Below are positions 45,411-64,000 of a DNA stretch of 64,000 bases, piece by piece; position 1 is the stretch's first letter, and the number at the start of each line of letters is the position of its first letter. Origin of the DNA: Phycisphaerae bacterium. Its GTDB lineage: Bacteria > Planctomycetota > Phycisphaerae > JAJVII01. The stretch lies in contig JAJVII010000042.1 of assembly GCA_022072085.1 (NCBI GenBank), forward strand, positions 1 through 64,000. The letters run 5' to 3'. Under the pieces are notes generated by a model. The model was not told the origin of the DNA. It did no database searches and was given only the letters and a program-made list of their open reading frames with translations. The position numbers and the translations under genes were made by a program.

Positions 45411-45432
45411 GAATCACCCAAGGCCCGATCTC

Positions 45433-46993: not shown

Positions 46994-47020
46994 GCCGGGA
47001 CGCCTTCGCGGCGTCCCGGC
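46994..47020 (-). terminator. Rho-independent terminator after fliL
   Basis: Perfect 11-bp GC-rich arms (46994-47004 and 47010-47020, core GCCGGGACGCC) close a 5-nt TTCGC loop. On the minus strand it is followed by TTCTTTTCGTT. It lies 24 nt after the fliL stop codon and would end the motA-motB-fliL transcript. Confidence 0.85.
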
Positions 47021-47043
47021 AGGAATCGACTTAGCGCCGTCGT

Positions 47044-47589
47044 TCAGTAGTCGGCGCGGAGGCGGATCCAGTTGCTTACGACGATCTTCTTGATCTTGCC
47101 CTCGCCGAAGATGCCCTCGAATTCCTGCTGAAGCAGTCGGCGGAGCGTGGTCAGTTCCGGCTCCTTGTCCAGTTCGTCGGGACCCATGCGGGCGATCACC
47201 TCGCGCACGGTCGACTCGATCGTCGCCTTGCGTTTCTCCATGACCTTCTTGACGGTGTCCAGTTCGTCCTGGCTGACGTAGGCGTAGATCTCGTAGCGGT
47301 AGAGGAAGGTCACGCCGCGCTTCGTGTTGGGGGCCTTGCCCTCGACGATCAACTCCTCGCAGTCGTTGCTGGCCAGCACGCCCGCGGGGCCGGCGCCGTT
47401 GGTCTTGGCCTGCGCCTGGCCGGGCGAACCGTTCAGCAGCATGACCAGCACAATCAGGACCGCCTCGCCCAGCAGCACGCCGCCGACCCACAGCGCCGTG
47501 ACCAGCTTGGGATTGCGAGGCTTCTTCTCGGCCGCTTCGCTTTCCGGCTGTACCTGCTCTTCTTCGTTGCGGGGCTTCTCTGTCGCCAT
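47044..47589 (-). CDS. fliL: Flagellar basal-body protein FliL
   Basis: A 181-residue inner-membrane protein with a charged cytoplasmic N-terminus, one membrane helix (VTALWVGGVLLGEAVLIVLV) and a periplasmic domain ending with the FliL-type L-R-R-L-L-Q-Q-E-F and I-V-V-S-N-W-I-R-L. FliL associates with the stator. It follows motB by 2 bp and ends with a strong terminator. Confidence 0.9.
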   Translation of the reverse strand: MATEKPRNEEEQVQPESEAAEKKPRNPKLVTALWVGGVLLGEAVLIVLVMLLNGSPGQAQAKTNGAGPAGVLASNDCEELIVEGKAPNTKRGVTFLYRYEIYAYVSQDELDTVKKVMEKRKATIESTVREVIARMGPDELDKEPELTTLRRLLQQEFEGIFGEGKIKKIVVSNWIRLRADY

Positions 47590-47591
47590 CT

Positions 47592-48419
47592 CTACGGCTC
47601 CTCCTCTGCGTTGTCGATCTGCACCTGCGTGACGGCCTGCGTCGGGTCGCCAAGTTCGTCGGGCAGCGCGGACGACGGCGCCTTCGGTATGGTCTCGTGC
47701 TCGCCTCCGTCGAACTGCTGCACGAGCGACTGGTTCACAATGATCTCGACGCGGCGGTTGGCCGCCTTGCTCTGCTCGTCATACGCCCGCTGGACCAGCG
47801 GCTCGCTGCTGCCGCACGTCACCCGCCGAAGCCGGTCCGGGCGGATGTGCAGTTGCACGAGGTAGTCAGCCACCGCGGTCGCCCGGGCAAAGGAAAGCTC
47901 GTGCCCGTCCTTGTACTTCTTGTCCGGCCCGGTCTCGGCCCGCGTGCTGTGGCCGCGAATCTCGATCTTGTTGTTCTCCCCGCGGATCAGCGTGGCCACC
48001 TCCTGCAGGGCGGCCTTGGCTTCCTCGCGCAGTTCAGCCGACCCGAAGTCGAAGCCGATCCGCCCGCCGATGGTGAACTCGATGCCCTCGCGGATTCTGC
48101 GGACGGTGTTCTCGCGGCCTTCAACGCCCTGGTCCTGGGCGTTGCCGGCCTTGAACTTGAAGTTCTCCAGCGAAATCTCGTCCAGCCGCGTGATCAGCGA
48201 GTTCTCCGGCGCGTCCTTGCTGACCACCGTGCCCATGCCGCCCTCGTAGCCGAAGGCCTCTTTGACCGCCTCCATCACCTTGCGGAACTTGTCGTTGTCC
48301 TTCACCTCGCTCATGGCCACGAGCATGATGAAGAAGGTCAGCAGCAGTCCCATCATGTCGCCGTAGGTCACCATCCACTCGGGGGCCCCGGCCGGCGTGA
48401 CTCTCTTGCGCTGGATCAT
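47592..48419 (-). CDS. motB: Flagellar stator protein MotB
   Basis: The 275-residue protein has the proton-channel helix W-M-V-T-Y-G-D-M-M-G-L-L-L-T-F-F-I-M-L-V-A with the essential D21-like aspartate, a plug/linker, and a C-terminal OmpA-type peptidoglycan-binding domain (I-E-I-R-G-H-S-T, L-S-F-A-R-A-T-A-V-A-D-Y, N-R-R-V-E-I-I-V). MotA precedes it by 18 bp. Confidence 0.96.
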   Translation of the reverse strand: MIQRKRVTPAGAPEWMVTYGDMMGLLLTFFIMLVAMSEVKDNDKFRKVMEAVKEAFGYEGGMGTVVSKDAPENSLITRLDEISLENFKFKAGNAQDQGVEGRENTVRRIREGIEFTIGGRIGFDFGSAELREEAKAALQEVATLIRGENNKIEIRGHSTRAETGPDKKYKDGHELSFARATAVADYLVQLHIRPDRLRRVTCGSSEPLVQRAYDEQSKAANRRVEIIVNQSLVQQFDGGEHETIPKAPSSALPDELGDPTQAVTQVQIDNAEEEP

Positions 48420-48437
48420 GGCTCACGCTCCGGGCCC

Positions 48438-49226
48438 TCAGGCGGCCTCGGCCTGCTCGTCGCTCATCTCGCGGCGCTGCGCCGGCGAGAGATACGTCTT
48501 CAGTTTCTGCTCCACGATGCGCGGATTGTCGCCGCTCTGGATCGACATCACCCCGCGGATGATGATCTGCTTGACCAGCACTTCCTCGTCGCTGCGCATC
48601 CGCAGCTTGTCGGAAACCGGCAGCGCGAACATGTTGGCCAGCAGCGCGCCGTACAGCGTCGTCAGCAGCGCGGTGGCCATGCCCGGGCCGATCTTCGAGG
48701 GGTCATCCATGTTCTTGAGCATGATGACCAGGCCCACCAGCGTGCCGATCATGCCGAACGCCGGCGCATACTTGCCCAGCGCGTCAAACAGCCCGCGCCC
48801 CTGCTCGTGCCGGGCGATCACCGCTTCCAGTTCGCTCTCGAGAATCTGCTCGATCAGCTCCGGGTCCGACCCGTCGACGGCCATCTGGATGCCCTTGATG
48901 AGAAACTCGTCGTCAATGTCCTTGGTCAGGCTCTCCAGGCTCAGGATGCCGTCGCGCCGGGCAACTTCGGCGTAGCCGACCATGTCCTTGATCAACTGGC
49001 TGGGCGGGGTCGTCTTGGTCATGAAGGCGTGCTTGACGACCTTGGCGATTTCCATCACCTTCTTGAGCGGGTAGCTCATCAGCGCCGAAGCAATGCCGCC
49101 ACCGAAGACGATCGCCACCGACTGCCAGTCCAGGAAGCTGCCCGGCTGCCCGTTGGTCCCCTGGACGATCGCCCAGGCGATCAGGGCGATGCCCGACAGC
49201 AGGCCGATGAGTGTGGCAAGGTCCAT
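48438..49226 (-). CDS. motA: Flagellar stator protein MotA
   Basis: The 262-residue protein has four membrane helices and the cytoplasmic loop with A-V-I-A-R-H-E-Q-G-R and the proline-containing last helix region P-A-F-G-M-I-G-T-L-V-G-L-V, G-P-G-M-A-T-A-L-L-T-T-L-Y-G-A-L-L-A-N-M. It begins the motA-motB-fliL unit; a sigma-28-like promoter lies about 85 nt upstream. Confidence 0.96.
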   Translation of the reverse strand: MDLATLIGLLSGIALIAWAIVQGTNGQPGSFLDWQSVAIVFGGGIASALMSYPLKKVMEIAKVVKHAFMTKTTPPSQLIKDMVGYAEVARRDGILSLESLTKDIDDEFLIKGIQMAVDGSDPELIEQILESELEAVIARHEQGRGLFDALGKYAPAFGMIGTLVGLVIMLKNMDDPSKIGPGMATALLTTLYGALLANMFALPVSDKLRMRSDEEVLVKQIIIRGVMSIQSGDNPRIVEQKLKTYLSPAQRREMSDEQAEAA

Positions 49227-49309
49227 GCCCGTTCCGTGCCGATTGCGGGTTCCGGTTCCTCAGCCCGGCCATGCCAGCGCATCCGCCGCCACATGGCAAC
49301 CATCGCTCA

Positions 49310-49337
49310 CTATCGGAAATCGCTTGTGCCGGGTTTA
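49310..49337 (-). promoter_or_regulatory. Sigma-28 (FliA)-like promoter of motA
   Basis: On the minus strand TAAA (49334-49337), a 16-bp spacer and TCCGATAG (49310-49317) resemble the sigma-28 consensus TAAA-N15-GCCGATAA, six of eight in the -10 box. Transcription would start near 49300, giving a leader of about 75 nt. fliA is encoded 12 kb away in the same region. Confidence 0.6.
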
Positions 49338-49364
49338 CTTACAGAATCGTGAAGACTTGCACAG

Positions 49365-49438
49365 CGAGCCGGCGTCGGGCCGGTCCGCGCCGGCGCCGCT
49401 TTCGCGGACCAGCCCGGACGCCTCCCGACGCCGGCTCG
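49365..49438 (-). terminator. Long hairpin between flbD and motA
   Basis: Perfect 15-bp outer arms (49365-49379 and 49424-49438; core GCCGGCGTCGGG) enclose a second inverted pair (GGTCCGCG/CGCGGACC). It lies 55 nt after the flbD stop codon. It probably terminates the flgB-flbD transcript, though the following T-content is low. Confidence 0.6.
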
Positions 49439-49493
49439 TCATTGGAACTGCCGCCCAGCCGCCCGGCCCGAACTCCGCCGGACGTGGGGGCTA

Positions 49494-49688
49494 TTATCGG
49501 AACGCCCGAAGGCTCCGTCCGTACTCGATCGCCCGCCGGACCACTTCGGGCACCGTTTCGCGCACGTTCAGCTTTTCGCCGCCGATCAGGGCGACGCAGG
49601 TGTCGTGCTCGCTGGACGCCTCGACGTAGCGGATCAGTTCGGCGTTGACGACGAAGGCCTTGCCGTTCAGACGCGTCAACTGGATCAT
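49494..49688 (-). CDS. flbD: FlbD-like flagellar protein
   Basis: A 64-residue protein that opens with M-I-Q-L-T-R-L-N-G-K-A-F-V-V-N-A-E-L-I, continues Y-V-E-A-S-x-x-x-D-T, and ends V-R-E-T-V-P-E-V-V-R-R-A-I-E-Y. This is the small FlbD (swrD-like) family found next to hook and stator genes. AGGAGAG precedes the ATG. It follows flgE by 52 bp. SwrD in Bacillus increases motor torque; the same role here is inference. Confidence 0.88.
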   Translation of the reverse strand: MIQLTRLNGKAFVVNAELIRYVEASSEHDTCVALIGGEKLNVRETVPEVVRRAIEYGRSLRAFR

Positions 49689-49740
49689 CACGCCACTCTC
49701 CTGCACTGCCCCCTGGTTCTGGCTGCACGTCCCGGCCAGC

Positions 49741-51435
49741 TTACCGGACCGTCTGGAGCAGCTCGGTAAGCAACTGGTTGGACGAGTTGATCACGCGGCT
49801 GGCCGCCGAGAAGCCCGTGCTCGCGACGATCAGGTTGATGAACTCGCGCGACAGGTCGACGTTGCTCAGTTCCAGGGCGCCCGAGGCGATCTTGCCCACG
49901 CCGCCGGTCAGCGGGGCCCGGACGACCGGCACGCCGCTGTTGGGGCCGGAGCTGAACAGGTTGTCGCTCTCGGCCACCAGGCCCGAGTCGTTGGCGAACG
50001 TCGCCAGGGCAAGCTGCCCCAGCGTCTTGGTCAGGCCGTTGGTGAACGTGCCGACCACCGAGCCGTCGGGCCCGAACGCGAAGTCGCTCAGCGTGCCGAC
50101 CGGGAAGCCGTCCTGCGTGCTCATCACGATCGAGCTGTCGTCGGCCGCCAGGGCCGTCATCGTCGAGAAGTCCGCCGAGATGTTCAGCGGCGTCTCGGCG
50201 CCGGTGCTGTCGCGGTTGATCGTGATCGAGTTGCCGCTGACGGTGAGCAACTGGCCCTGGTTGCCGAACGTGAGTTGGCCGGTCCCCACCGCCAGGTCGA
50301 TGTCCGTGTCGTCCGGGCTCTCGGCAAACCACCGCCAGGTCGTGCCCAGCCCGCTGCGCGATTCCAGCACCATGCTGATGCCCGCGGTGATCTCCGTTCC
50401 CAGCGAGTCGTAGAACGTCATCGACGTATAGACCGACTCGCCGTCGGCCGACGCGCTCTTGGTGAACGTCAGCGGCTCGTTGAACGAGCTGTTGGTGCTC
50501 AGCAGGTCGCCGACCTGGATGTCCAGGTCGTTCACCGTGCCAATGTTCCCGACAACCGAGATGTGGCCGGTCGAGTCGATAGTCACGCCGGCTGAGGTGC
50601 TGGTGTCGGTGTTGATGCCCAGCACGTCCTGGAGCCACTCCATGAACTCGCCCACTGTCGAACCGCTGTTGATGGCGCTGGTGGAACTGCTGGTGACGGT
50701 AAAGGTCGAACTGGGCAGGTCGCGGCCGCCCTTTTCGGTGTTCAGCGTCAGTTCGTCGCCGACCGCGAAGATCGCATCCGTGCCGCTGCGCACGTCGGTC
50801 AGGTCCGTGGACTCGACGGCCGCCGCCCCGCCGTTTCCGGCGTCGGTCAGGGCCTGGCTGGCCAGCACGGCCGCCGTCGTCGCCACGACGCCGCTGCTGT
50901 TCAGGTTGCCGGCGTAGTCGGCGTTGCTGGTGGCACCGGCCACAGAGAGCTGGCCGATCGGCACCTGAAGCCGTGTCAGCGTGCCGGTCACCACGTTGAA
51001 GTTGCTGTCCACGCCAAAGCCCTCGAGGAAGTATCCGTCGCCGCTGACCAGGTAGTTCTGACCGTTGAGCACGAACGCGCCGTCGCGGGTGTACGCCTGC
51101 GAACCGTCGCCCTTCTCGACGATGAACCAGCCCTTGCCTTCGATCGCAAGGTCCGTTCCCTTGCCCGTGCTCTCGAACGAGCCGGGTTCCATGTTGCGCT
51201 GAATGGCCCCGGCCACGGCGCCCAAGCCGATCTGCGTCGGGTTGGCTCCGCCCGTCGTCCCCGACGGCGGCGCGCCGAAGCTGAACGTCTGGCTGAACTG
51301 CGACTGGAACGACACCGTCGACGACTTGAACGCCGTCGTGTTCACGTTGGCGATGTTGTTGCCCGTCACGTCCAGCTTGAGCTGGTTGACGTTCAGACCC
51401 GACAGCGCGGTGAACAGTGAACTGGTCAGACCCAT
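49741..51435 (-). CDS. flgE: Flagellar hook protein FlgE
   Basis: The 564-residue protein begins with the rod/hook signature L-F-T-A-L-S-G-L-N-V-N-Q-L-K-L-D-V-T-G-N-N-I-A-N-V-N-T-T-A-F-K and ends with the matching heptad helix (E-F-I-N-L-I-V-A-S-T-G-F-S-A-A-S-R-V-I). It is longer than the roughly 400 of E. coli, with a large Ser/Thr/Gly-rich middle (D2/D3-type) domain. flgD is upstream. Confidence 0.95.
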   Translation of the reverse strand: MGLTSSLFTALSGLNVNQLKLDVTGNNIANVNTTAFKSSTVSFQSQFSQTFSFGAPPSGTTGGANPTQIGLGAVAGAIQRNMEPGSFESTGKGTDLAIEGKGWFIVEKGDGSQAYTRDGAFVLNGQNYLVSGDGYFLEGFGVDSNFNVVTGTLTRLQVPIGQLSVAGATSNADYAGNLNSSGVVATTAAVLASQALTDAGNGGAAAVESTDLTDVRSGTDAIFAVGDELTLNTEKGGRDLPSSTFTVTSSSTSAINSGSTVGEFMEWLQDVLGINTDTSTSAGVTIDSTGHISVVGNIGTVNDLDIQVGDLLSTNSSFNEPLTFTKSASADGESVYTSMTFYDSLGTEITAGISMVLESRSGLGTTWRWFAESPDDTDIDLAVGTGQLTFGNQGQLLTVSGNSITINRDSTGAETPLNISADFSTMTALAADDSSIVMSTQDGFPVGTLSDFAFGPDGSVVGTFTNGLTKTLGQLALATFANDSGLVAESDNLFSSGPNSGVPVVRAPLTGGVGKIASGALELSNVDLSREFINLIVASTGFSAASRVINSSNQLLTELLQTVR

Positions 51436-51543
51436 CGTAAGCCTCCTTTGGTGATCGCCTGTGGCGACTCACTCATCCCGGCGAATCTTCTGTTTCTCCC
51501 CGGGACGCTGGGCCCCGGCGTTTGCTTATCTCCGCTATCCGCG

Positions 51544-51963
51544 TCAGCCGCCCTTCGGCTGGGTCACGCGGGTGACATCGTCCAGCCCGACTCGCTGCCC
51601 GTTGTCCAGGTCCAGGTAGACGCTGCCCGACTCGACCGCCACGCTGGTCACCGTCCCGGTCACCTTGTCCAGCGTGCTGTTCAGGCCGGTCACCACCTTG
51701 CCGATCAGCGCGCCCGCCGAGCTGATCTGCTGCTGGAGCGTGATCGTCTTGAGCGTGCTCTCCAGGTCGAGGTTGCTCTGCAGCCCTCGGATCGCGGACA
51801 TCTGCTGGAGCAGTTCCTGGTTCTTCATGGGCTCGAACGGATCCTGGTTTTTCAACTGCGTGATCAGCAGCCTGAGAAAGTCCTCCGGCGAAACGTCGCC
51901 CACGCTCTTGGCCTGCGTCGAACTGCTGCGGCTTCCGCTGACTCCGCTGATGACACTGGACAT
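51544..51963 (-). CDS. flgD: Hook-capping protein FlgD
   Basis: The 139-residue protein shows the N-terminal FlgD core: E-D-F-L-R-L-L-I-T-Q-L-K-N-Q-D-P-F-E-P-M-K-N-Q-E-L-L-Q-Q-M-S-A-I. The C-terminal FlgD-Ig domain is replaced by a short beta segment, giving a short form that caps hook assembly. It follows fliK by 22 bp. Confidence 0.94.
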   Translation of the reverse strand: MSSVISGVSGSRSSSTQAKSVGDVSPEDFLRLLITQLKNQDPFEPMKNQELLQQMSAIRGLQSNLDLESTLKTITLQQQISSAGALIGKVVTGLNSTLDKVTGTVTSVAVESGSVYLDLDNGQRVGLDDVTRVTQPKGG

Positions 51964-51985
51964 TTCCGACTCCTTGAGTTTTCCG

Positions 51986-54127
51986 CTACCCCCACAGGTT
52001 CAGGCCGCCCGTCGCGACGCGTCCGCCAGCCGTTGCCGCCGGTTCCGCGTCCGCCGTCGCTGCCTGCGTGTTCCGCTCGTTGGCAAACGATTCCCGCCCC
52101 CGGCCGTCCTGTCCGTCGGACGTCTGCCGTCCGCCGCCGTCGCCCGGCTGATCGTCGCCGCCCTGCCCGCCCGCATGCGACGGCGCCTCGCCCGCACGCG
52201 GGCCCTGCACCGACAGGTGCGTCACCGACAGGCCGTGCGCCTGGAGCGATTCGCGCAGGTGGCTAAGTTGGCTGCTCAGAAGGTCGGCCGCCGATTCGCT
52301 CCCGGGCAGCAGCGTCAGCCGAATCGAGTGTCCGCCCATCGCCATGTTCACCTGCACGCTGCCCATGCCCGGCGGGTCCAGTTGCAGCCGGATCATCCCG
52401 CCGCCGCCGCCCAGCCGAGCCACCGCCGCCTGGGCGATCCGATCGCCGTTGGCCGCCGCGTCGAATGACTCGACCACCGATTGGCCGGCCGCGTCGGCCG
52501 ATGCGCCAGAGCCGGGCACGACGCTCGCGCCGGCCCGCGTGCCCGCGCCGGCTGTCGTCGCCAGTCCGCCCGTCGGATCGCCTGCCGTGCCCGTCGCCGT
52601 TTCGGCCGCCGGCATCTGGAGAGCAACCGCCCCCTGCCCAACCGGGCTTGCAGCCGGCGCCGGCTGAGCGACCACGGTCGGTTTGAAGTTGTCAGCCGCG
52701 ATCGGCCGATCGGCGGCGGGGCGTTGCGCCGGATGGCCGTCAGGATCCGCCGTCTGTTCGACCTCGACACGGACATCCGCGGGCAGCCGGACAGCCGGGC
52801 CGGCCGGGGCCTGCTCCGCAGGCGGCCGCGACGGCTGGGCCGTCTTGTGGCCGACAGCCGTGGCCGGCTTCGCCTCCCGGCTGGCCAGTGTCGCGTCAGG
52901 CCGGTCGGCCTTCACTTCCGCTCGCGGGCGGATAGTCCCGGTCGTCGGCTGTTCAGTTCGCCGTGCCGCGTTCGCGACGTCCTCATCCTCGACGGGCTCA
53001 GCGGCTTGCTGCTCGACCTGTTGCGTGACATCTAGCAAGACCGCGCCAGCGGATACCTCCTGCGACCGCGCCGGAGCATTCTCGGCCACCTTCGCGTGGT
53101 CCGCCGGTTTCTGCTGTGCCTCGTTGAGACGCCGGCCGGCGTCGCTCGCCACCTGCCGCAGCGGTGGATCGACCTGCGCCGGCGCCGGTGTCGTCGGCGG
53201 CTGCGATAGCGCGACCTCCGGGGCCACCGGCTGCGGCTTCGTCGCAATCAGCCGTCGCGGCGTGTCGGTCGGCTGCGGGGCCGGCGGCTGATCCGAGTCG
53301 TCCTTCACCGCCTGGGCCCCGCCGCCCGCCTGAGCGACCTGGACATCGAAGTTCACCGGGGCGCCCGCTGCCGGCTGGGCCGTCGGGCTCGCGGGTTCAG
53401 TCGGACGCGCATGGGGCTGGGCCTTCGCGCCGGCGTCGCCCGCCTTGGCGTGGCCGACCAACGGCTTCACGTCGGCCGATCGCGTCTGCCGCGTCGGCGA
53501 CTCGGCCAGACGAGAGACGTGCAGGTGCTTGCGAACCGCCTCCGGATCGGCCGGCTGCCTGGCGGGCGCGGGGTATTCCGTGTCGTTCGCCACGTCAGCG
53601 GTGGCCGCCTTCTGGGCAATTTCGGTCGTGGCGCCGGTCGCAGCAGCCGCATCGTCGATTTCCCTCGCGTCGGCCGTATCGACCGCATAGCCGGACAGCA
53701 CAGCCGCCAGCCAGTGGGCGACCTGGGCCGCGTTGGTCGGATCGACCGTGTCGGGCAACTGTAACTGCAACTCCTGCGGGACGTCGCCGTCCGCGAAAGT
53801 CCGCAGCGCCTCAGCCAACTGCTCAGCCGTCACCGGCGCGTTCGCGGCAGTGTCCGCAACAGCCTGCGAGGAGCCCGCCACGGGCCCGTCCGCCTCGCCG
53901 ACGGCTGCGTCTCGCCCGCCGGGCCGAACCGGCGACGGCATGCCCGTGGCGCCGCCGGGCTTCTGCAACGACGCCTGCCGCCGTGCGGGCCGAACCGAGT
54001 CAGCCAGCGCCCGGGCGAACTGCCCCGTGTCGGACGGGGTCTCGTCGGCCGCGACGTTGCGGGAGCGCGACCCTGTCGGCTTGGCCGCCGCCAGGTCGCG
54101 AATCAGGTTGCCTGTGCTCTGCGACAT
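51986..54127 (-). CDS. fliK: Hook-length control protein FliK
   Basis: A 713-residue, mostly disordered Pro/Ala/Thr-rich protein with a C-terminal FliK domain (L-Q-L-D-P-P-G-M-G-S-V-Q-V-N-M, followed by R-L-T-L-L-P-G-S-E and L-S-S-Q-L-S-H-L-R-E-S-L-Q-A-H-G-L). FliK measures the hook and triggers FlhB switching. Low complexity in the middle is expected for this molecular ruler; the length is well above the 405 of Salmonella FliK. Confidence 0.9.
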   Translation of the reverse strand: MSQSTGNLIRDLAAAKPTGSRSRNVAADETPSDTGQFARALADSVRPARRQASLQKPGGATGMPSPVRPGGRDAAVGEADGPVAGSSQAVADTAANAPVTAEQLAEALRTFADGDVPQELQLQLPDTVDPTNAAQVAHWLAAVLSGYAVDTADAREIDDAAAATGATTEIAQKAATADVANDTEYPAPARQPADPEAVRKHLHVSRLAESPTRQTRSADVKPLVGHAKAGDAGAKAQPHARPTEPASPTAQPAAGAPVNFDVQVAQAGGGAQAVKDDSDQPPAPQPTDTPRRLIATKPQPVAPEVALSQPPTTPAPAQVDPPLRQVASDAGRRLNEAQQKPADHAKVAENAPARSQEVSAGAVLLDVTQQVEQQAAEPVEDEDVANAARRTEQPTTGTIRPRAEVKADRPDATLASREAKPATAVGHKTAQPSRPPAEQAPAGPAVRLPADVRVEVEQTADPDGHPAQRPAADRPIAADNFKPTVVAQPAPAASPVGQGAVALQMPAAETATGTAGDPTGGLATTAGAGTRAGASVVPGSGASADAAGQSVVESFDAAANGDRIAQAAVARLGGGGGMIRLQLDPPGMGSVQVNMAMGGHSIRLTLLPGSESAADLLSSQLSHLRESLQAHGLSVTHLSVQGPRAGEAPSHAGGQGGDDQPGDGGGRQTSDGQDGRGRESFANERNTQAATADAEPAATAGGRVATGGLNLWG

Positions 54128-54143
54128 ACTCGCTGCAACTTCC

Positions 54144-54833
54144 TCAGGGCCGGCCGGCGAGGCTGGCCTGTCGATTGTCGGTCTTGCCCGTCGCGTCGGC
54201 CGCGGGTGTCTTGGCCGCCGACGGGTCTTCCATGTAGTCGAGAACCTTGCGCAGCTTGGCCTGCTCGGCCGGGGTCTGGAACGCCTTGGCCGCCTTGGCC
54301 GCCTTGCGCGGGTCCATGTGCGTCAGGTAGCGCACGACCTCCGCGTCGTCCATGTTCATGAACAGGTCCTTGGCCTGGTCGGCGTCCAGCGACTCGTACA
54401 TCTCCAGGCTCTTCTTGAAGCCCGCACCGGCCAGCAACACGCGCTCGGCCTCGCGCTGCTCCTGCCACTTCTTCCGGTCGGCCTCGAACTGGCTGATGCG
54501 AAGATCCAGGGCGCCCTTTGCCTGGTCGAGCTGGACCTTGAAATCCTTCAGCTCGCGCATCTGCTGCTCGATCTGGAGCTGTGTCACCTGCGTCTGCTCG
54601 CGCTCGTCGGCGATCCGCTGACCGGCGGTGGTCAGGTTGTCGGGCTGAACGGCCGGCGTCTCGGTCTTGGCGGCGGCCGCCTGGAGCGGACGGTCGAGCA
54701 TCACGTCGCGAATCAGCTTGAGCTTGTTGCCGCTGAGCTTGCCGGTCGCGAACAGCGCCCCGGCCAGCACTCCAGCCGCCAGCAGATGCGCCGCCGCGAT
54801 AATGGCCACGATTTCCCATAGTTTCCGCATCAT
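54144..54833 (-). CDS. MotE-like (MgtE N-domain) flagellar protein
   Basis: A 229-residue protein with an N-terminal membrane helix (I-V-A-I-I-A-A-A-H-L-L-A-A-G-V), a long coiled coil (about 70-130) and a C-terminal region Y-E-S-L-D-A-D-Q-A-K-D-L-F-M-N-M-D-D-A-E-V-V-R-Y-L that matches the MgtE intracellular N-domain repeats of MotE. In other bacteria MotE chaperones MotC; here it sits between fliJ and fliK. Its start overlaps the fliJ stop codon as ATGA. Confidence 0.78.
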   Translation of the reverse strand: MMRKLWEIVAIIAAAHLLAAGVLAGALFATGKLSGNKLKLIRDVMLDRPLQAAAAKTETPAVQPDNLTTAGQRIADEREQTQVTQLQIEQQMRELKDFKVQLDQAKGALDLRISQFEADRKKWQEQREAERVLLAGAGFKKSLEMYESLDADQAKDLFMNMDDAEVVRYLTHMDPRKAAKAAKAFQTPAEQAKLRKVLDYMEDPSAAKTPAADATGKTDNRQASLAGRP

Positions 54834-55321
54834 GCGTCAGGTCCTTCCGACGCGCCGGCCGCCTCGGCCTCCTGCCGATTCCGCCGGTGCGTCTGCACGC
54901 CCATCTCATCCAGATCCCGCCGCTCGGTCCGGCCGACCTCGGCCAGCCACTGGCTTCGCCGCCGGTCGCGCAGCTTGTCGAGCACCTTACGCCGCTTGAC
55001 GGCCTCGACCAGCTCGGCCTGCGCCTTGCGGGCCTCCTGCTGCGTCGTCGCCCGCTCACAAAGCGTCTGCACCATCGCCCGCATGACCGAGTTGACGTAG
55101 CTGCGGTGGTGGGCCAGCCGCCGCACGTCCAGCGACCCGACCAAACCCCCGCCGCGCAGGGCGCCGTGCTCGTCGCGGATCATGTCGTTGTAGCGGACGG
55201 CCCGGGCCGTCTGCTCGTTCAGCCGCCCGACCACGCGGCCCAGCGCGGCCTTGCGCTGGTCCTCCTCGTGCTGCCTGATCCGCAGCAGCGGATCGAGCCG
55301 GAATTTGAACTTGCTTGCCAT
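54830..55321 (-). CDS. fliJ: Flagellar export chaperone FliJ
   Basis: A 163-residue protein, almost all charged helix/coiled coil (F-R-L-D-P-L-L-R-I-R-Q-H-E-E-D-Q-R-K-A-A-L-G-R-V), as expected for FliJ, the stalk-like partner of the FliI ATPase. It follows fliI by 38 bp, in which a CACAGAGG-type repeat occurs. Confidence 0.88.
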   Translation of the reverse strand: MASKFKFRLDPLLRIRQHEEDQRKAALGRVVGRLNEQTARAVRYNDMIRDEHGALRGGGLVGSLDVRRLAHHRSYVNSVMRAMVQTLCERATTQQEARKAQAELVEAVKRRKVLDKLRDRRRSQWLAEVGRTERRDLDEMGVQTHRRNRQEAEAAGASEGPDA

Positions 55322-55330
55322 CTCTCAGTT

Positions 55331-55350
55331 CACCACAGAGGCACGGAGAG
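55331..55350. repeat. Single CACAGAG-type repeat between fliI and fliJ
   Basis: Two tandem units (CCACAGAGG, CACGGAGAG) of the same type as the arms around the GxxExxY cassette. There is no inverted partner. It lies 9 nt after the fliI stop codon on the minus strand. Confidence 0.5.
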
Positions 55351-55359
55351 AACTCCGGC

Positions 55360-56703
55360 TCACGCCTTGATCCCCCGCTTGGCGTACTCCTGCTGAATCC
55401 TGCGGTGCAGGCCCAGCAACGCCACCTTGGCCTGAGCGAAGCGGACCGGCTCCTCGATCCGCTGGCACAGGAACGCATTCACTTCGTCGCGCATCTGCAC
55501 GGCCACGTCCTGGTGCGGGTTGGACCCAGCGACGTAGGCCCCGATGTTCACCAGGTCCTCGATCTCGTTAAACTCCGCGACCATCCGGGCCGACACGCGG
55601 GCCGCCTGCGTGTGCTCATCGTCCACCAGGTCGACCGCCAGACGCGAGATTGAATCGGTCACGTCCACCGCCGGGTAGTGCCCGCGATTGGCCAGCCGAC
55701 GCGACAGCGACAGGTGGCCGTCCAGGATCGAGCGGACGTGGTCGGTCACGGGCTCGGTCATGTCGTCGCCCTCGACCAGCACGGTGTAGAAACCGGTGAT
55801 CGAGCCGCTCGCGGTCCGGCCGGCCCGCTCCAGCAGCGTCGGCATCATCGAAAAGACCGACGGCGGATAGCCGCGGGTGGCCGGCGGCTCGCCCGCAGCC
55901 AGGCCGATCTGACGCTGGGCGGTGGCCATGCGCGTCAGCGAGTCCATCAGCAGCAGGACGTTGAGCCCCTGATCGCGGAAGTATTCAGCGACGGCCGTCG
56001 CGGTCAGCCCCGCGCGAAGACGCGTCAGCGGCGGGGCATCGGAAGTCGAGACCACCACGACGCTGTGGGCCAGGCCCTCGTCGCCGAGGTCCTTGGCCAG
56101 GAAATCCTTTACCTCGCGGCCGCGCTCGCCGACCAGCCCCACGACCACCACGTCGGCCGAGGTGTAGCGGGCGATCATGCCCAGCAGGACGCTCTTGCCC
56201 ACGCCCGGACCGGCGAAGATGCCCATGCGCTGACCCTGGCCGACGGTCATCAGGGCGTCGATGCAGCGGACGCCGGTGCCGATCGGTTCTGTGACGCGCT
56301 CGCGCTGCATCGGGCCCAGCGGCTCGCGGGCGATCGGCTGATGATCCACCGTCGCCAACGGGCCCTTGCCGTCAATCGGGCGGGCGAAGGCGTCGACCAC
56401 GCGGCCGAGCAACGCCGGGCCGACAGGGACCTGCCAGACAGTCGATTCAAGGCTGATGCGATCGCCGCGGCCGAGGCCCGTCGTCTCGCCCAGCGGCATG
56501 ACCAGCGTGCCGCGATCGGAGAAGCCGACGACCTCGGCCGGCATGTCGCCACCGGTCGCGGTGCGGATGCGGCAGCGGGCGCCGACCGGACAGGAGAGCC
56601 CCTCAGCCGACGCGATCAGCCCGGTGACCGACTGCAATCGCCCGGTCATGCCCATCGGCTGAATCCGCCGCAGGGAGTCGAATTGTCGGTCGTAGAGAGC
56701 CAT
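55360..56703 (-). CDS. fliI: Flagellum-specific ATPase FliI
   Basis: The 447-residue F1-like ATPase powers export. Walker A is GPGVGKSVLLGMIA, with G-E-R-G-R-E-V, Walker B V-L-L-L-M-D-S-L-T-R and the closing region Y-A-K-R-G-I-K-A. The ATG has no recognisable Shine-Dalgarno: the bases upstream belong to the right-hand arm of the GxxExxY cassette, which separates fliI from fliH by about 440 bp. Confidence 0.96.
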   Translation of the reverse strand: MALYDRQFDSLRRIQPMGMTGRLQSVTGLIASAEGLSCPVGARCRIRTATGGDMPAEVVGFSDRGTLVMPLGETTGLGRGDRISLESTVWQVPVGPALLGRVVDAFARPIDGKGPLATVDHQPIAREPLGPMQRERVTEPIGTGVRCIDALMTVGQGQRMGIFAGPGVGKSVLLGMIARYTSADVVVVGLVGERGREVKDFLAKDLGDEGLAHSVVVVSTSDAPPLTRLRAGLTATAVAEYFRDQGLNVLLLMDSLTRMATAQRQIGLAAGEPPATRGYPPSVFSMMPTLLERAGRTASGSITGFYTVLVEGDDMTEPVTDHVRSILDGHLSLSRRLANRGHYPAVDVTDSISRLAVDLVDDEHTQAARVSARMVAEFNEIEDLVNIGAYVAGSNPHQDVAVQMRDEVNAFLCQRIEEPVRFAQAKVALLGLHRRIQQEYAKRGIKA

Positions 56704-56713
56704 TGGTTTCTAG

Positions 56714-57149
56714 ACCACAGAGAGCACAGAGAACACAGAGCGAATCAGAGAACCATTCGTTTGATGCCATCCCGCAGGAGCTTGACGTTGAAGTTAAGCA
56801 GCAGGCCTTTCGGAATCCCGCTCAAGTTCATGTAGGTCAGCAATTGAGCTGCATGAAGCGGCGTGAGGCTCTCGACTGCCTTGATCTCAATGATCAACTT
56901 TCCCGGAATCATCACATCAATCCTGTAGCCGCAATCCAATTCAACGCCCTTGTACGTGACCGGCAGGGCCCATTGCCTCACGAACTCACAGTTGCGTTGG
57001 CGCAACTCATAGCAGAGGCATGCCTCGTAGGCGGATTCGAGTAAACCCGGCCCCAGGGCCTTGTGCACTTCGATGGCCGCTGCAATGACTTCAGATGTAA
57101 GAGCATCCCTCTCATCTTCCATCTCTGTGCTCTCTGTGTGCTCTGTGGT
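56714..57149 (-). mobile_element. Inverted-repeat cassette A carrying a GxxExxY gene, in the fliH-fliI junction
   Basis: Arms 56714-56740 and 57123-57149 (27 nt) are complementary at 24 positions and are built of the tandem unit CACAGAG plus 2-3 bases. They enclose a single gene (56745-57122) with almost no spare sequence; the gene is on the operon strand. The outer right end abuts the fliH stop codon (57150-57152). No transposase or target duplication was seen. Confidence 0.75.
56745..57122 (-). CDS. GxxExxY protein
   Basis: The 125-residue protein shows the family signature G-P-G-L-L-E-S-A-Y (G-x-x-E-x-x-Y), then [18 protein letters not shown], a PD-(D/E)xK-like D...E-x-K core, and ends [17 protein letters not shown] nuclease-like fold is suggested for this family but the function is not known to me. 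It is unrelated to motility and occupies the space between fliH and fliI inside an inverted-repeat frame. Confidence 0.9.
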
Positions 57150-57848
57150 TCACTCTTCCCTTGTGCCCAGCAGTTCGGCCGCGATGCGGGTCAACTGCGT
57201 CTGGATCGTCGCGTCCACTTCGCTGGACTGGCCGCTCTCGCGCCACGCCGTCACGCGGCAGCCGCCCGGCTCGATCGACTCGTCGGCAACCACCTGCACC
57301 TCGCCCTCACCGGTCAGTCGGTCGGCCAGGTTAGGGGCGAACTCCTGGATGGTCGCCAGGTCGCCGGGGCTGACGCGGATCGACAGTCGCGATGTATGCC
57401 CGGTCAACTCCACCGCCGCGTCGACCGTGCGGCGGCAGGCGCCGGGGTCGGCAGCCAGCCGCGTGCGGACGACCTTCTCCGCCGCCGTCAGCGCCAGCGC
57501 GACCAGATCCTGCCGCGCCTCCGCCAGCATCTGCCCCTTGCGTTCGTTCAGCATCTCCATCGCCTCAGCCAGCATGCGGCCGGAGCGGGCGAACTCGGCG
57601 TCGAAGCGGCGCTGGGCCTCGTCGCGGCCGACCTTGAGGCCCTCCTCGCGGCCGGCGGCGTGCCCCTCGGCGTGACCGGCCGACCGGGCCTGCTCGCGGA
57701 TCGCGTCGGCGTTGGCCTGGGCGTCGGCGACCAGGGCCTCGGCCCGCTGCCGGGCGGCCGCGATGATCGACCGCGCTTCGATGGCGATGTCGCCGAAGTT
57801 GAACGGGGTCGCGCGGGCGGTCTCGGAATTCTTGATGACGCCGGACAT
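57150..57848 (-). CDS. fliH: Flagellar export stator protein FliH
   Basis: A 232-residue protein with an N-terminal charged coiled coil containing A-x-x-x-A-x-x-x repeats (A-D-A-Q-A-N-A-D-A-I-R-E-Q-A-R) and a C-terminal globular part (R-V-S-P-G-D-L-A-T-I-Q-E-F, T-G-E-G-E-V-Q-V-V-A-D, G-G-C-R-V). This is the FliH/SctL pattern. FliH links the FliI ATPase to the C-ring. It sits between fliG and the GxxExxY cassette. Confidence 0.88.
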   Translation of the reverse strand: MSGVIKNSETARATPFNFGDIAIEARSIIAAARQRAEALVADAQANADAIREQARSAGHAEGHAAGREEGLKVGRDEAQRRFDAEFARSGRMLAEAMEMLNERKGQMLAEARQDLVALALTAAEKVVRTRLAADPGACRRTVDAAVELTGHTSRLSIRVSPGDLATIQEFAPNLADRLTGEGEVQVVADESIEPGGCRVTAWRESGQSSEVDATIQTQLTRIAAELLGTREE

Positions 57849-57894: not shown

Positions 57895-58902
57895 TCACAC
57901 GACCATTTCACGATCGCCGCCGCGGCCGGAGATGACGATCTCCCCGGAGTCCTCCAGGCGGCGGACCACGTCCACGATCTTCTGCTGGGCGGCCTCGACG
58001 TCGCTGACGCGGACCGGGCCCATGTACTGCATGTCTTCCTTGATGAGCTGCGTCGCCCGCTCGCTCATGTTCTTGAATATCTTGTCCTTCAGTTCCTCGC
58101 TGGCCGTCCGCAACGCCAACGCCAGGTCGGCGTTGTCGATCTCCTTGAGCACCGACTGGATGCCGCGGTCGTCCACGAGCATGATGTCCTCGAAGACGAA
58201 CATCAGCCGCCGGATCGACTCGACCAGGTCGGGGTCCTCGGTCTCCAGGGCCTCAAGGATGCTCTTCTCGGTGGCGCGGTCGGCCAGGTTGAGCACCTCG
58301 GCCACCGTCTCGACGCCGCCGGTCTTCTCAAAGGTCTGGTGGATCATCGAGGAGAGCCGGCTCTCCAGCCCGCGCTCGACCTCCTTGATCATCTCGGGGT
58401 TGGTCTGCTCCATGTTGGCGATGCGCTTGACGACTTCGATCTGCTTGGCGGCGGGCAGGCCAACGAGAATCTCCGACGCCTTGCCCGACGGCAGGTGCGA
58501 GAGGATCAGCGCAATCGTCTGCGGGTGCTCGTCCTGGATGAAGGTCAGCAGGTTGTCGGCCTCGGCCTTGCTCAGGAACGCGAAGGGCGAGGCGTTGATG
58601 GTCCGCTCGACCTGACCGACGATCTCGTCTGCCTGCTCCTTGGTCAGGCTCTTGCTGAGCAGCTCGCGGGCGTACTGGAGGCCGCCCTCGTCCATGTAGT
58701 TGTGCGCCAACGCCAGGTTGTAGAACTCGCGGACGACGGCCGTCCGGTCGCGCGACTCGATGTGACCGATCGAGGCGATCTCGCGGCTGACATCCTCGAT
58801 GGCCTCGCCGTCCAGCCGCTGCATGACCAGTGCAGCCGAGTCCTGGTCCATGCTCAGCAGCAGGATGGCGGCCTTGCGGGATCCCGAGATATCGTCAGCC
58901 AT
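57895..58902 (-). CDS. fliG: Flagellar motor switch protein FliG
   Basis: The 335-residue protein opens S-R-K-A-A-I-L-L-L-S-M-D, has the EHPQT motif (D-E-H-P-Q-T-I-A-L-I-L-S-H-L), the middle N-M-E-Q-T-N-P-E, and C-terminal torque helix residues L-K-D-K-I-F-K-N-M-S-E-R-A. Start at MADDISG with GAGGTG upstream; a GTG three codons earlier is also open. FliG transmits torque and binds the FliF ring encoded next to it. Confidence 0.96.
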   Translation of the reverse strand: MADDISGSRKAAILLLSMDQDSAALVMQRLDGEAIEDVSREIASIGHIESRDRTAVVREFYNLALAHNYMDEGGLQYARELLSKSLTKEQADEIVGQVERTINASPFAFLSKAEADNLLTFIQDEHPQTIALILSHLPSGKASEILVGLPAAKQIEVVKRIANMEQTNPEMIKEVERGLESRLSSMIHQTFEKTGGVETVAEVLNLADRATEKSILEALETEDPDLVESIRRLMFVFEDIMLVDDRGIQSVLKEIDNADLALALRTASEELKDKIFKNMSERATQLIKEDMQYMGPVRVSDVEAAQQKIVDVVRRLEDSGEIVISGRGGDREMVV

Positions 58903-58914: not shown

Positions 58915-60591
58915 TCACTTGGCCCCTTTCCCGATCCAGCGGCGGACGAGCGTCGCGGCGGCGTCGGGGTTCTCCTGCACCAGGTGCGTCACCTGCTCGA
59001 CCATCTGCTGCGTGCGCTGGGCCTCCTCGTCCGGCTCCATGTCGTCCAGGAGACCGGGGACCGGCTTGCGAGCGGCGCCGCCGGCCGACTGGGGACCGTA
59101 GGCGGCGCCGGCGGCCTGCACGGCGGCGCCCTGCCCCTGCGTCTCGGCTGCCAGCGTGCCGGCGCCCGACGCAGCCCGGCGCATCATCATCAGCATCATC
59201 AGCAGGCTGATCACCGCCAGGGCGCCCAGGCCGATGCTCGGCGCCCGCTGCCACAGGGCCGCGATCATGCCGGCCGACTCGACCGCCGGCTGCGTCTGGG
59301 CGCTCTCGGCCACCTTGTCGTAGAAGTAGCTGATGACGACTTTGTCGTCCTCGGCCGGGTCGCTGCCGATCGCGGCCTTGACCATCGGCTTGATGCGGCC
59401 GATCTCGTTTCCGATGAACGTCTTCAGGGCCGCCGGATCGGGCTTGTCCTGGTCGGTCTCGGCCTTGTAGGCCGTTACGAAGTAGCTGTAGGGGATGTTC
59501 ACCGACGCCGTGACCGACTGCACCATGCCGGGCATGTGAACGGTCTCGGTGCGCTTCTCGCCGATCTTCGTGTCGTAGGTCGTCTGCTCCTCGTTGTCGC
59601 TGCTCTTGGAGCCGGCCGACGCCGCGGTGTTGGCCACCGCCGCCCCGCCGGTGTTCAGCGCCACGCCCGGCTCGCCCCCGCCGCCCGAGCCGTCGGCCGA
59701 CGTGCTCTTGTGGCTGGTCTCGCTGGCGACCACGCTGACCGCGTTGTCTTTGTCCACCTTGACCTCGGTCTCCTTGCGGGTGGCCGGGTCGAGCTTCACG
59801 TCCGCGGTGACCAGCACGCCCTCGATATGGCCGATCACCTTCATGATGCTGCGGACGCACTTCTCCTCGTGCTGCGTGGTCAACTCAAGATAGTCGGCGG
59901 GCATGCCCGCTTCCTCGCTGGGCACGCGATAGCTTCGGCCGTTGGTCGAGTCGATGACGCGGACCCGGTCGCGCGGCATGTCGCGGACCGCTCCGCAGAT
60001 GTAGTCCGCGACCGCATTGACCATCTTCTTGTCGATCGTCTGGCCCGGTCGCATCCGCAGATGCACCGCCGCCGACGGCTGGCCCTGGGCGGACCCGAAG
60101 CCCCGCTTCTGCGGCCGGTCGATCAGAACCTGGGCATCCAGGACGTTGGGGAACTGCCGGAAGACCGAGGCGATCTGGTTACGCTCGGCGACATCCTTCT
60201 TCATCTCGAACTCAGCCGGGCTCTGCCAGATGTTGCTGTCCTTGACGAGCTGCTCGAAGCCGAAGCTGAAATCGTGCGGCAGGGCGTTGTTGGCGGTGAG
60301 CACATAGTGAGCCTGGAGCCGGTCGTCCGGGGCAACCATCACCTTGCCGTCGGAAGCGACCAGGGCGTTGATGCCGGCCGCCTTGAGGGCGGTCACCATT
60401 CGGCCGGACTCGTCAGCCTCGAACGCCTGGTCGAGCACGGGCACGCGGTCGCTGGTCCCGGCGTACTTCATCATCCAGACCACGCAGACCACGATCAGCA
60501 CCAGCAGCGTCGCGATCAGCATCCGCTGGCTGAATGAGAGTTGCTGAAACATGGACTTGATCTGGTCGAGCGTCTTTTGGAATCTTCCCAT
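58915..60591 (-). CDS. fliF: Flagellar MS-ring protein FliF
   Basis: The 558-residue protein has two membrane helices (about 28-45 and 440-460) around two ring-building motifs; K-M-V-N-A-V-A-D-Y-I-C-G-A-V, V-P-S-E-E-A-G-M-P-A-D-Y and Y-F-Y-D-K are visible, and the C-terminus is the FliG-binding tail. The ATG at MGRFQKTL has AGGA upstream. The four-helix-bundle cassette B separates it from fliE. Confidence 0.96.
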   Translation of the reverse strand: MGRFQKTLDQIKSMFQQLSFSQRMLIATLLVLIVVCVVWMMKYAGTSDRVPVLDQAFEADESGRMVTALKAAGINALVASDGKVMVAPDDRLQAHYVLTANNALPHDFSFGFEQLVKDSNIWQSPAEFEMKKDVAERNQIASVFRQFPNVLDAQVLIDRPQKRGFGSAQGQPSAAVHLRMRPGQTIDKKMVNAVADYICGAVRDMPRDRVRVIDSTNGRSYRVPSEEAGMPADYLELTTQHEEKCVRSIMKVIGHIEGVLVTADVKLDPATRKETEVKVDKDNAVSVVASETSHKSTSADGSGGGGEPGVALNTGGAAVANTAASAGSKSSDNEEQTTYDTKIGEKRTETVHMPGMVQSVTASVNIPYSYFVTAYKAETDQDKPDPAALKTFIGNEIGRIKPMVKAAIGSDPAEDDKVVISYFYDKVAESAQTQPAVESAGMIAALWQRAPSIGLGALAVISLLMMLMMMRRAASGAGTLAAETQGQGAAVQAAGAAYGPQSAGGAARKPVPGLLDDMEPDEEAQRTQQMVEQVTHLVQENPDAAATLVRRWIGKGAK

Positions 60592-61094: not shown

Positions 61095-61400
61095 CTAGAG
61101 CCTCATCTGCTGCACTTCCTGATACGCGTCCATCAGCTTGTTGCGAATCTGCATCAGCATGTCGAAGGCGACGTCGGCCTTCTGGACGGCCACCATCACC
61201 TCGGCCACGTTGGTCGTCTGCCCGGTCGCCAGCTTGTTGGTCGCGTCGGCGGCCTCGGACTGGAGCCGGTTCACCTCGTTGATGCTGTCCATCAGCACCT
61301 TGGAGAAACTGCCGTCGCCCTTGCCGTCGACGGCGCGGGCGGCGGCCGCCTGGCCAGCGCCGACGGACTGGATCGGGTTGTTCAGCGGGTTGACTGCCAT
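61095..61400 (-). CDS. fliE: Flagellar hook-basal body protein FliE
   Basis: The 101-residue protein shows the FliE C-terminus V-M-V-A-V-Q-K-A-D-V-A-F-D-M-L-M-Q-I-R-N-K-L-M-D-A-Y-Q-E-V-Q-Q-M-R-L. FliE joins the MS ring to the rod. It follows flgC by 64 bp, and cassette B lies right after it. Confidence 0.95.
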   Translation of the reverse strand: MAVNPLNNPIQSVGAGQAAAARAVDGKGDGSFSKVLMDSINEVNRLQSEAADATNKLATGQTTNVAEVMVAVQKADVAFDMLMQIRNKLMDAYQEVQQMRL

Positions 61401-61464: not shown

Positions 61465-61866
61465 TTACGCCAGCAGACGCAGGCTGGCCGACAACATCGC
61501 CTTGGTCGCCTCGATGGCGGTGATGTTGGCCTCGTAGGCCCGCGTCGCCTCCAACGCGTTGACGTACTCCGTCGCCATGTCCACATTGGGGTAGCTCACG
61601 TACCCGTCCACCGCGTCCGGGTGGCCGGGGTCATACACTTTGCGAAACTCCGACGGATCATGGGCGATCTCGGTCACCTGCACACCGCGCGGCCGGCCGG
61701 CCCGGTCCATCGCCTCGGCGAACAGCGGAACCTGGCGGCGGTACGGCCGCAGCGCCCCGCTCGCGTCGCGCGTCGAGTTGGCGTTGGCGATGTTGGCCGC
61801 AACCGTGTTCAGCCGAACCCGCTGGGCCGTCAGTCCGCTCGTCGAGATGTCCAGTGCGCCGAACAT
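61465..61866 (-). CDS. flgC: Proximal rod protein FlgC
   Basis: A 133-residue rod protein with L-D-I-S-T-S-G-L-T-A-Q-R-V-R-L-N-T-V-A-A-N-I-A-N-A-N at the start and the matching C-terminal helix Y-V-N-A-L-E-A-T-R-A-Y-E-A-N. Start at MFGALDIS with GGAG seven bases upstream. It is separated from flgB by cassette C, whereas flgB and flgC are normally adjacent. Confidence 0.95.
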   Translation of the reverse strand: MFGALDISTSGLTAQRVRLNTVAANIANANSTRDASGALRPYRRQVPLFAEAMDRAGRPRGVQVTEIAHDPSEFRKVYDPGHPDAVDGYVSYPNVDMATEYVNALEATRAYEANITAIEATKAMLSASLRLLA

Positions 61867-62341: not shown

Positions 62342-62773
62342 CTATCCAACCGTCCCGCGGATCGCCACCTTGAGCTGGGCGAACTGGACCCGCAGCAGCT
62401 CGGCGGCCGTGTTGTAGGTCAGCGTGTTCTCAGCCAGCGCCGCCATCTGCCTCTCGATCTGCCGGTTGGCTCCGTCGCCGAACAGCACGTTGTTGCCCTC
62501 GACCGGCATCGCGTGGTAGGCCGTCCGGCCGTCGCGCCCGGTGCGGACCTGTCGGCCGCCCAGAACCAGCCGCCCGCTGTTGCGACCACGTTCGTCCAGG
62601 GCCTTGGCCAGCGACTGCTGAAAGTCCGACACCGACAGGTCGCGGACCTTGTAGCCCGGCGTGTCGATGTTGGCGATGTTCTGCGTCAACTGCTCGTGCC
62701 TGGCCGCGGCGAACTGCATCACCTGCGTCAGCACCGGGATAGTCGTCTGGTTGACGAGTTGGTCCAGCAACAT
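62342..62773 (-). CDS. flgB: Proximal rod protein FlgB
   Basis: The 143-residue protein has the FlgB opening (V-M-Q-F-A-A-A-R-H-E-Q-L-T-Q-N-I-A-N-I-D-T-P-G-Y-K-V-R-D) and ends with the paired C-terminal rod helix. AGGAG stands before the ATG. A consensus sigma-54 promoter is 44 nt upstream of the start codon, so flgB heads the early flagellar operon. Confidence 0.95.
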   Translation of the reverse strand: MLLDQLVNQTTIPVLTQVMQFAAARHEQLTQNIANIDTPGYKVRDLSVSDFQQSLAKALDERGRNSGRLVLGGRQVRTGRDGRTAYHAMPVEGNNVLFGDGANRQIERQMAALAENTLTYNTAAELLRVQFAQLKVAIRGTVG

Positions 62774-62776
62774 CGC

Positions 62777-63004
62777 CTACTGCTCCTGCGAGACAACAGG
62801 TCCGGACTTGGGGATATGCAAACCGCATGCCAGCAGGTGCGGATGCCCTTTCCCGGCTGATTCGCCCGTTGGCGGCGCCGCCGGACGCGCAACTTTTGCG
62901 CCCGACGCGCAGGTTCTGCCGGCAGAATCCGCCTTCTGCCGCGGGGTGGCCGGGCGTTGACCGCCCGGCTGGCCGGGGACGCTGAGGCCCTGTGTCAACA
63001 GCAT
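62777..63004 (-). CDS. Small hypothetical protein between the sigma-54 activator and flgB
   Basis: A 75-residue frame with a strong ACAGGAGG site before its ATG and a start 11 bp after the activator's stop codon, so it is probably translated with that gene. It is proline/glycine/alanine-rich with no recognised motif (MLLTQGLSVPGQPGG at its start). The flgB sigma-54 promoter lies inside its 3' end. Confidence 0.5.
   Translation of the reverse strand: MLLTQGLSVPGQPGGQRPATPRQKADSAGRTCASGAKVARPAAPPTGESAGKGHPHLLACGLHIPKSGPVVSQEQ
62817..62832 (-). promoter_or_regulatory. Sigma-54 promoter of the flgB operon
   Basis: On the minus strand the sequence is TGGCATGCGGTTTGCA, matching TGGCAY-N5-TTGC with a 10-bp GG-GC spacing. 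The start point would be near 62806, a leader of about 33 nt before flgB. A sigma-54-dependent activator is encoded just upstream. Confidence 0.9.
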
Positions 63005-63015: not shown

Positions 63016-64000
63016 TCACTGGCTGACGGCCCCGACCAGGTCGCGGCCGCCCACCGGTTCCAGCAATCCCTGCTCGCGATAACGCTTGAGCTTGAGCCCC
63101 AGGGTCCGCAGGCCGATGCCCAGCGCCTCGGCCGTCCGCGCCCGGTGCCCGCCGTTCTCCTTGAGCGCGGCGAAGATCAGCCGCCGCTCCATCTCCGCCA
63201 TCAACGCGCCGTCGTAGGCGTCGAAGTCGTTCCGCCCCAGCCCCAGCAACGCCTGGGCGTGCGAAACCGACTGAGTCGGCTCGGCAGCCGGGGCGTTCCG
63301 CCGCAGCCAGCCCGCGACGCGGGCCGCGTCGATCGTGTCGTCGTCGGCTAGCGCCGAGCAACGCTCCATCAGGTTCTCCAGCTCGCGGACGTTGCCCGGC
63401 CAGTCGTAGCCGAGCAGCAGGTCGCGGGCCTCGGGCGTGAGGGTCAGCCGGGCCCGGCCTTCGCGGCGGGCGATGCGGGCCAGCAGGTGCTCAGCCAGCG
63501 GCTGCACGTCCTCGCGCCGCTCGCGCAGCGGCGGGATGTGAATCGGCAGCACGCTGAGGCGGTAGAAGAGGTCCTCGCGGAACTTGCCCTCCTGCACCCA
63601 GCGGCCCAGCGGGCGGTTGGTCGTCGCGATGACCCGCACATCCACGCGCCGGGCGATCGACGAGCCGACGCGCTCGAACTCCCGCTCCTGGAGCACGCGG
63701 AGCAGCTTGGCCTGGAGCCGGTCGTCCAGTTCGCCGACCTCGTCCAGCAGCAGCGTGCCGCCGTCAGCCAGCTCGAAGCGCCCCTGGCGGCTGCGGTCGG
63801 CGCCGGTGAAGGCGCCGCGCTCGTGGCCGAACAGTTCGCTCTCCAGCAGCGCCGGGCTCAGGGCGGCGCAGTTGACCGCGAGCATCGGCGCCGCGGCCCG
63901 CGGCGAAGCGGCGTGGATCGCCCGGGCGACCATCTCCTTGCCCGTGCCGCTTTCGCCGGTGACCAGCACCGTCGCGCTGTTGGGGGCAACGCGTTCGACC
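63016..64000 (-). CDS. Sigma-54-dependent transcriptional activator (NtrC/FlgR type), 5' end outside the window
   Basis: The visible 327 residues hold the AAA+ domain with Walker [10 protein letters not shown], the sigma-54 contact loop GAFTGA, Walker [14 protein letters not shown]-finger region [14 protein letters not shown], and a C-terminal Fis-type helix-turn-helix ([13 protein letters not shown]). The sensory N-terminus is cut off. Its place directly upstream of a sigma-54 promoter driving flgB suggests it is the flagellar master activator (FlgR/FleQ-like), by inference. Confidence 0.9.

Follow-up and report, generated by a model that had tools for sequence, protein, structure and literature searches.

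In the FlgS/FlgR system of Campylobacter and Helicobacter, the FleS/FleR system of Pseudomonas, and the FlrB/FlrC system of Vibrio, a cytoplasmic kinase and an NtrC-type regulator control the flgB rod/hook operon together with sigma-54. The MS-ring, the C-ring/rotor, and the export apparatus are made first in these systems, and it is their assembly that triggers the regulator; fliA of P. aeruginosa does not depend on the two-component regulator (PMC7064773). As far as the available part of a 2025 paper goes (PMC12316311), sigma-54 promoters are predicted for flagellar basal-body genes in Planctomycetia and for chaperone genes in Planctomycetota, Phycisphaerae included, and that part describes no flgB regulator, enhancer, or Phycisphaerae flagellar block of the kind reported below. 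We found no experimental account of flagellar control in Phycisphaerae in the literature. Here, we analyzed 64,000 nucleotides of a Phycisphaerae contig (referred to as the window) and found an arrangement that resembles the three systems in having a cytoplasmic kinase, an NtrC-type regulator, and a sigma-54 site before the flgB operon. Unlike in those systems, the promoter of flgB here also precedes fliF, fliG, and, by gene order, the export genes and fliA.

The C-terminal two thirds of the regulator are encoded at 63016..64000 on the minus strand, and the gene extends past the window to about C9:64464. The protein is 482 amino acids long and shows the features of the NtrC family, i.e., a receiver (REC) domain, an AAA+ domain with a GAFTGA motif, and a Fis-type helix-turn-helix (HTH), with PF00072, PF00158, and PF02954 all above cut-off. 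Upstream of it lie genes for a 318-amino-acid soluble histidine kinase (HisKA plus HATPase), a FlgN-family protein, and a TPR protein. The closest models to the regulator are those of NtrC, AtoC, and ZraR, yet it falls below every curated cut-off shown, including those of NtrC proper (446.6 of 558.6 bits), FlbD (365 of 750 bits, NCBIfam), PrsR (358.6 of 502.6 bits), and FlgR (319.5 of 750 bits), and the kinase falls below that of FlgS (99.3 of 600 bits). It is like Caulobacter FlbD in being an NtrC-type activator of flagellar genes, and the gene context of FlbD differs from that of the flgB regulator. Judged by its layout, the circuit would work like FlgSR, FleSR, and FlrBC, yet it lies below the FlgSR family cut-offs and precedes the MS-ring, export, and sigma-28 genes.

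The 16-mer TGGCATGCGGTTTGCA occupies 62817..62832 on the minus strand, in the spacer that separates the stop codon of the regulator gene (63016) from the flgB start (62773). It has the GG-N10-GC spacing and the TGGCAY-N5-TTGCW consensus of sigma-54 (−24/−12) promoters, and a matrix derived from the genome's 70 other sites gives it 25.7 bits out of a maximum of 28.2. No second sigma-54 site of ≥8 bits was found in the flagellar part of the window. With C62818 taken as −12, transcription is predicted to start at 62806, the same position that an earlier, sequence-only reading had arrived at; this would leave a 33-nucleotide leader before the flgB ATG (62773), with AGGAG at 62787..62783 upstream of the ATG. 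A side-by-side reading of spacers revealed that the activator stop codon is soon followed by a palindrome, which in the window is GCGCAAAAGTTGCGC (62887..62901, minus-strand sequence). It lies 54 bp upstream of the promoter 16-mer, with its center at about −88, and is the predicted enhancer (upstream activating sequence).

The genes downstream are all on the minus strand. flgB itself (62342..62773) matches Flg_bb_rod weakly and was assigned by synteny and by its orthologues in 31 of 61 genomes; flgC (61465..61866), fliE (61095..61400), and the MS-ring gene fliF (58915..60591; protein scanned as 58915-60606) were identified by domain scan, and the rotor gene fliG (57895..58902) was identified by synteny and sequence. 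The rest of the cluster (36253..57848) includes fliI, flbD, fliN, fliO, fliP, genes for an FlhF-like GTPase and a MinD-like ATPase, and others, some of which we take to be what their names say from our own reading of the sequence. It ends with the sigma-28 gene fliA (36253-37080; FliA_WhiG TIGR02479 above cut-off). Genes are co-directional from 62773 to 36253, about 26.5 kb, and we infer that one transcript may cover the whole flgB-to-fliA cluster.

We favor, with a probability of about 0.87, the reading that the flgB sigma-54 promoter is silent until the neighboring regulator, phosphorylated by the kinase, binds the palindrome, upon which transcription runs into flgB-fliG and on toward fliA. 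In such a mechanism, sigma-54 polymerase would form a silent closed complex at the −24/−12 site; the soluble histidine kinase would presumably phosphorylate the adjacent response regulator, which would then bind GCGCA-N5-TGCGC about 88 bp upstream of the start and remodel the polymerase by means of its AAA+ domain. Transcription would enter flgB-flgC-fliE-fliF-fliG and then, by putative read-through, the cluster up to fliA, whose product would switch on the late genes. The promoter, the enhancer, the gene order, the domain content, the class-wide conservation, and the phasing described below are the sequence-based part of this scheme, and sigma-70- or sigma-28-type promoters may act within the cluster beside the sigma-54 site. 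Since the MS-ring, rotor, and export genes are themselves downstream here, either a basal level provided by read-through from the regulator operon or by internal promoters would be amplified through sigma-54, or the kinase senses something else.

These features offer a wiring diagram for flagellar control in Phycisphaerae in which enhancer, promoter, regulator, and kinase are all named, and they put a predicted sigma-54 switch ahead of the genes for the MS ring and sigma-28, in contrast to the stepwise polar program of Campylobacter, Vibrio, and Pseudomonas. More tentatively, and with the odds slightly against it, the two-component system could be the flagellar master regulator of Phycisphaerae, with one promoter and one enhancer commanding rod, MS-ring, rotor, export, FlhF/FlhG, and sigma-28. 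If so, an assembly signal sensed via FliF/FliG would constitute a positive-feedback loop and not a stepwise polar-flagellum program.

To place the locus among its relatives, we compared 61 genomes, our own and 60 of the same class. Canonical flgB was found in 31 of them (E≤1e-14), and orthologues of the activator C-terminus (≥110 bits; next best ≤94 bits) occurred in exactly the same 31. In all 30 loci read (our own and 29 relatives), flgB is immediately preceded by a co-directional NtrC-type activator gene. Within the 300 bp before flgB, the highest-scoring sigma-54-like site usually falls in the spacer and is often the strongest of the entire locus; in a few of the 30, it is weak or absent. 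FlgB proved too variable in alignment for scanning the collection, and the regulator C-terminus was therefore used as the query against named genomes, and it recovered Phycisphaerae and other planctomycete records, mostly Phycisphaerae. flgB follows the activator in 77 of these 80 loci, and a site of ≥8 bits is present in 27 of the 77 spacers, versus 0.9% of control segments. Among 56 full-length loci, the order HK-RR-flgB-flgC-fliE-fliF-fliG is nearly invariant (HK in 56, flgC in 54, fliE in 56, fliF in 56, and fliG in 55). By these comparisons, the regulator-promoter-flgB arrangement is judged to be conserved class-wide in Phycisphaerae. In one family, f16 (G027, G034, G041, G048, and G055), the only flgB is a divergent one, and nothing scores above 94 bits as an orthologue of the flgB regulator; G041 carries a related activator gene about 7 kb from flgB.

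The sequence-only reading had proposed a simple circuit of activator, promoter, and early flagellar operon within 1.3 kb. The circuit holds up, being conserved throughout the class, and the size does not, because the activator gene runs past the window end and the activator plus spacer take up about 1.7 kb. Its core was thus correctly recognized and its extent underestimated, as a histidine kinase, a FlgN-like gene, the enhancer palindrome, and a target cluster of about 26.5 kb also belong to it.

The same comparisons bear on the alternative that survives best, namely, that flgB is transcribed mainly by read-through from the FlgN-kinase-regulator operon and that the sigma-54 site is a boost or a remnant. 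The genes are co-directional, and the spacers of some relatives are well under 100 bp and have neither a recognizable sigma-54 site nor a palindrome, so that in these relatives transcription reaching flgB from the regulator operon has to be enough. In the present genome, however, flgB has a near-consensus site of its own and an intact enhancer, and we regard read-through as the main route here as improbable.

GCGCA-N5-TGCGC was found exactly in 47 of 101 regulator-flgB spacers, versus 1.7 expected from random segments of the same loci, and with ≤1 mismatch in 66 of 101, versus 5.0 expected; relatedness inflates these counts, and the phasing test below is the one analysis from which loci sharing a promoter 17-mer were excluded. 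None of six permuted palindromes matched a spacer exactly. At several loci, the palindrome is present in two or three copies spaced by about 20 bp. In loci with both elements recognizable, palindrome-promoter distances cluster near 42, 52, 62, 71, and 81 bp, showing a periodicity of roughly 10 bp (best, 9.9; R, 0.63) that none of 2,000 simulations equaled in strength after removal of loci sharing the promoter 17-mer, relatedness and double copies being retained. An upstream enhancer, as is typical of sigma-54 promoters, is thus indicated by conservation, with binding of the activator as a prediction, and GCGCA-N5-TGCGC is likely the enhancer of the flgB promoter. Other exact copies of GCGCAA-N4-TGCGC in the genome were considered as further targets and rejected: four lack any sigma-54 site of ≥9 bits within about 2 kb, and the fifth (C33:67607) is found about 225 bp ahead of a PEP-CTERM promoter equipped with an enhancer of its own. 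A strict composite pattern matched only this genome among 199 of the phylum, and it is uninformative on distribution because class members with degenerate versions failed as well.

A second alternative, which we rate as still less probable than read-through, accepts the promoter and assigns it to another activator, such as that of the PEP-CTERM genes. The genome encodes 13 strong sigma-54 activators, and enhancer-binding proteins can act in trans. However, the flgB region has a palindrome of its own and lacks the PEP-CTERM enhancer ATGTTG-N8-CAACAT at ≤2 mismatches (best match, 4), and the neighboring regulator and flgB occur in the same genomes. The action of the neighboring regulator on the flgB promoter hence remains the preferred reading.

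The PEP-CTERM enhancer belongs to a separate set of promoters. At least 39 of 71 strict sigma-54 sites of this genome (G000) precede genes with a PEP-CTERM sorting signal (e.g., L022 10312, L036, L046, L061, and L078); three example genes exceed the TIGR02595 cut-off, and an exosortase is present in the genome. Within 200 bp upstream, ATGTTG-N8-CAACAT (≤2 mismatches) was found at 25 of the 39 promoters versus 9 of 500 control segments, at a distance of about 105 to 170 bp. The activator encoded on C37 has a promoter with a PEP-type enhancer right behind its gene and is a candidate PEP-CTERM regulator; at L042, L043, L044, L063, L067, and L069, other sigma-54 activator genes adjoin strict sites. 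In the window, a second strict site (13781-13796, plus strand; 28.1 bits) precedes a short PilZ-like frame and has a two-mismatch PEP-type enhancer 161 bp upstream. Haft et al. (2006) found sigma-54 motifs before PEP-CTERM genes to be common only to Proteobacteria, with an upstream motif that ends in TTTACA (PMC1569441). The promoters here are like those of the PrsK/PrsR system of Proteobacteria in preceding PEP-CTERM genes and differ in the planctomycete enhancer, ATGTTG-N8-CAACAT (PMC1569441). They thus appear to form a large PEP-CTERM sigma-54 regulon outside Proteobacteria with an enhancer of its own, and, by their different enhancers, the flagellar and PEP-CTERM genes of this genome are assigned to two separate sigma-54 circuits.

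The genome-wide search also bears on the promoter itself. The strict motif TGGCAYRNNNNTTGCW has 71 matches in the whole 5.49-Mb genome versus 1 for the reversed pattern; by codon-model gene calls, none of the 71 falls within a gene, and the next gene is on the same strand for 65. Their aligned consensus is cTGGCACGCcgTTTGCW, with C favored before TGG. The sister genome has 47 matches versus 1, and seven other class members have 1 to 10, which indicates that the PEP-CTERM expansion is a matter of this family, whereas the flgB promoter is class-wide. RpoN is encoded once in the genome, and rpoN is present in all 61 genomes of the class, so that its presence does not track flagella. Strict sites also occur at L035 4000, L071 4000, and L079 4000, preceding genes that, from reading the sequence alone, we presume to be groEL-, dnaK-, and Hsp20-like. 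These chaperone-gene sites agree with the Planctomycetota predictions in the available part of PMC12316311.

A chance resemblance of TGGCATGCGGTTTGCA to a promoter in GC-rich DNA would fit the window taken alone, where 2 matches at ≤1 mismatch versus 1.31 expected are not significant and chance is not excludable at that scale, but it is very unlikely given the genome-wide ratio, the intergenic position of every match, and, above all, the conservation of the site before flgB in relatives. The claim of a sigma-54 promoter for flgB with exact −24/−12 spacing was borne out by the GG-N10-GC spacing, the genome-wide excess, and this conservation, and we consider TGGCATGCGGTTTGCA a genuine sigma-54 promoter as judged from these features.

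The promoter had also been described as embedded in the end of a small open reading frame (ORF) behind the activator. An open frame of 75 codons plus stop does exist (62777..63004, minus strand), follows the stop at 63016, and contains the site, but it is no gene. Its codon score is −10.4, compared with +57 for flgB and +122 for the activator fragment; it has no Pfam family match; and in other spacers only short weak fragments resemble it, several of them over translated enhancer/promoter DNA. Spacers range from 39 to 643 bp (median, 156), and only 18 of 101 are long enough for such an ORF. As both the palindrome and the promoter lie within it, the ORF is best regarded as regulatory DNA, and a small conserved peptide was dropped on the codon score and the lack of conservation. 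A genuine small gene or leader peptide overlapping the promoter is hardly credible: the frame is open right after the activator, but it scores poorly, is unconserved, and exceeds 83 of 101 spacers, and chance ORFs are long in most frames of GC-rich DNA.

Within the flagellar operon, the window contains a pair of genes for four-helix-bundle proteins (23S rRNA IVP, PF05635) at 60631-61026 and 61914-62288, and further copies are found at L196, L199, L202, and L203. Short tandem repeats border six of the eight genomic copies; the repeats vary between copies but match as inverted pairs across each gene, with self scores of 17.5 to 35 versus a shuffled maximum of 15. In the sister genome, the PF05635 genes are partly elsewhere in the block (L111, between kinase and regulator and after flgB), and none was found in the block of the other 79 loci. 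Together with their repeats, these genes resemble a mobile unit of recent origin. A PD-(D/E)XK family fragment (56745-56912, minus strand; PF13366, last 51 positions only), situated between fliI and the flagellar gene before it, is a further insert in the flagellar operon.
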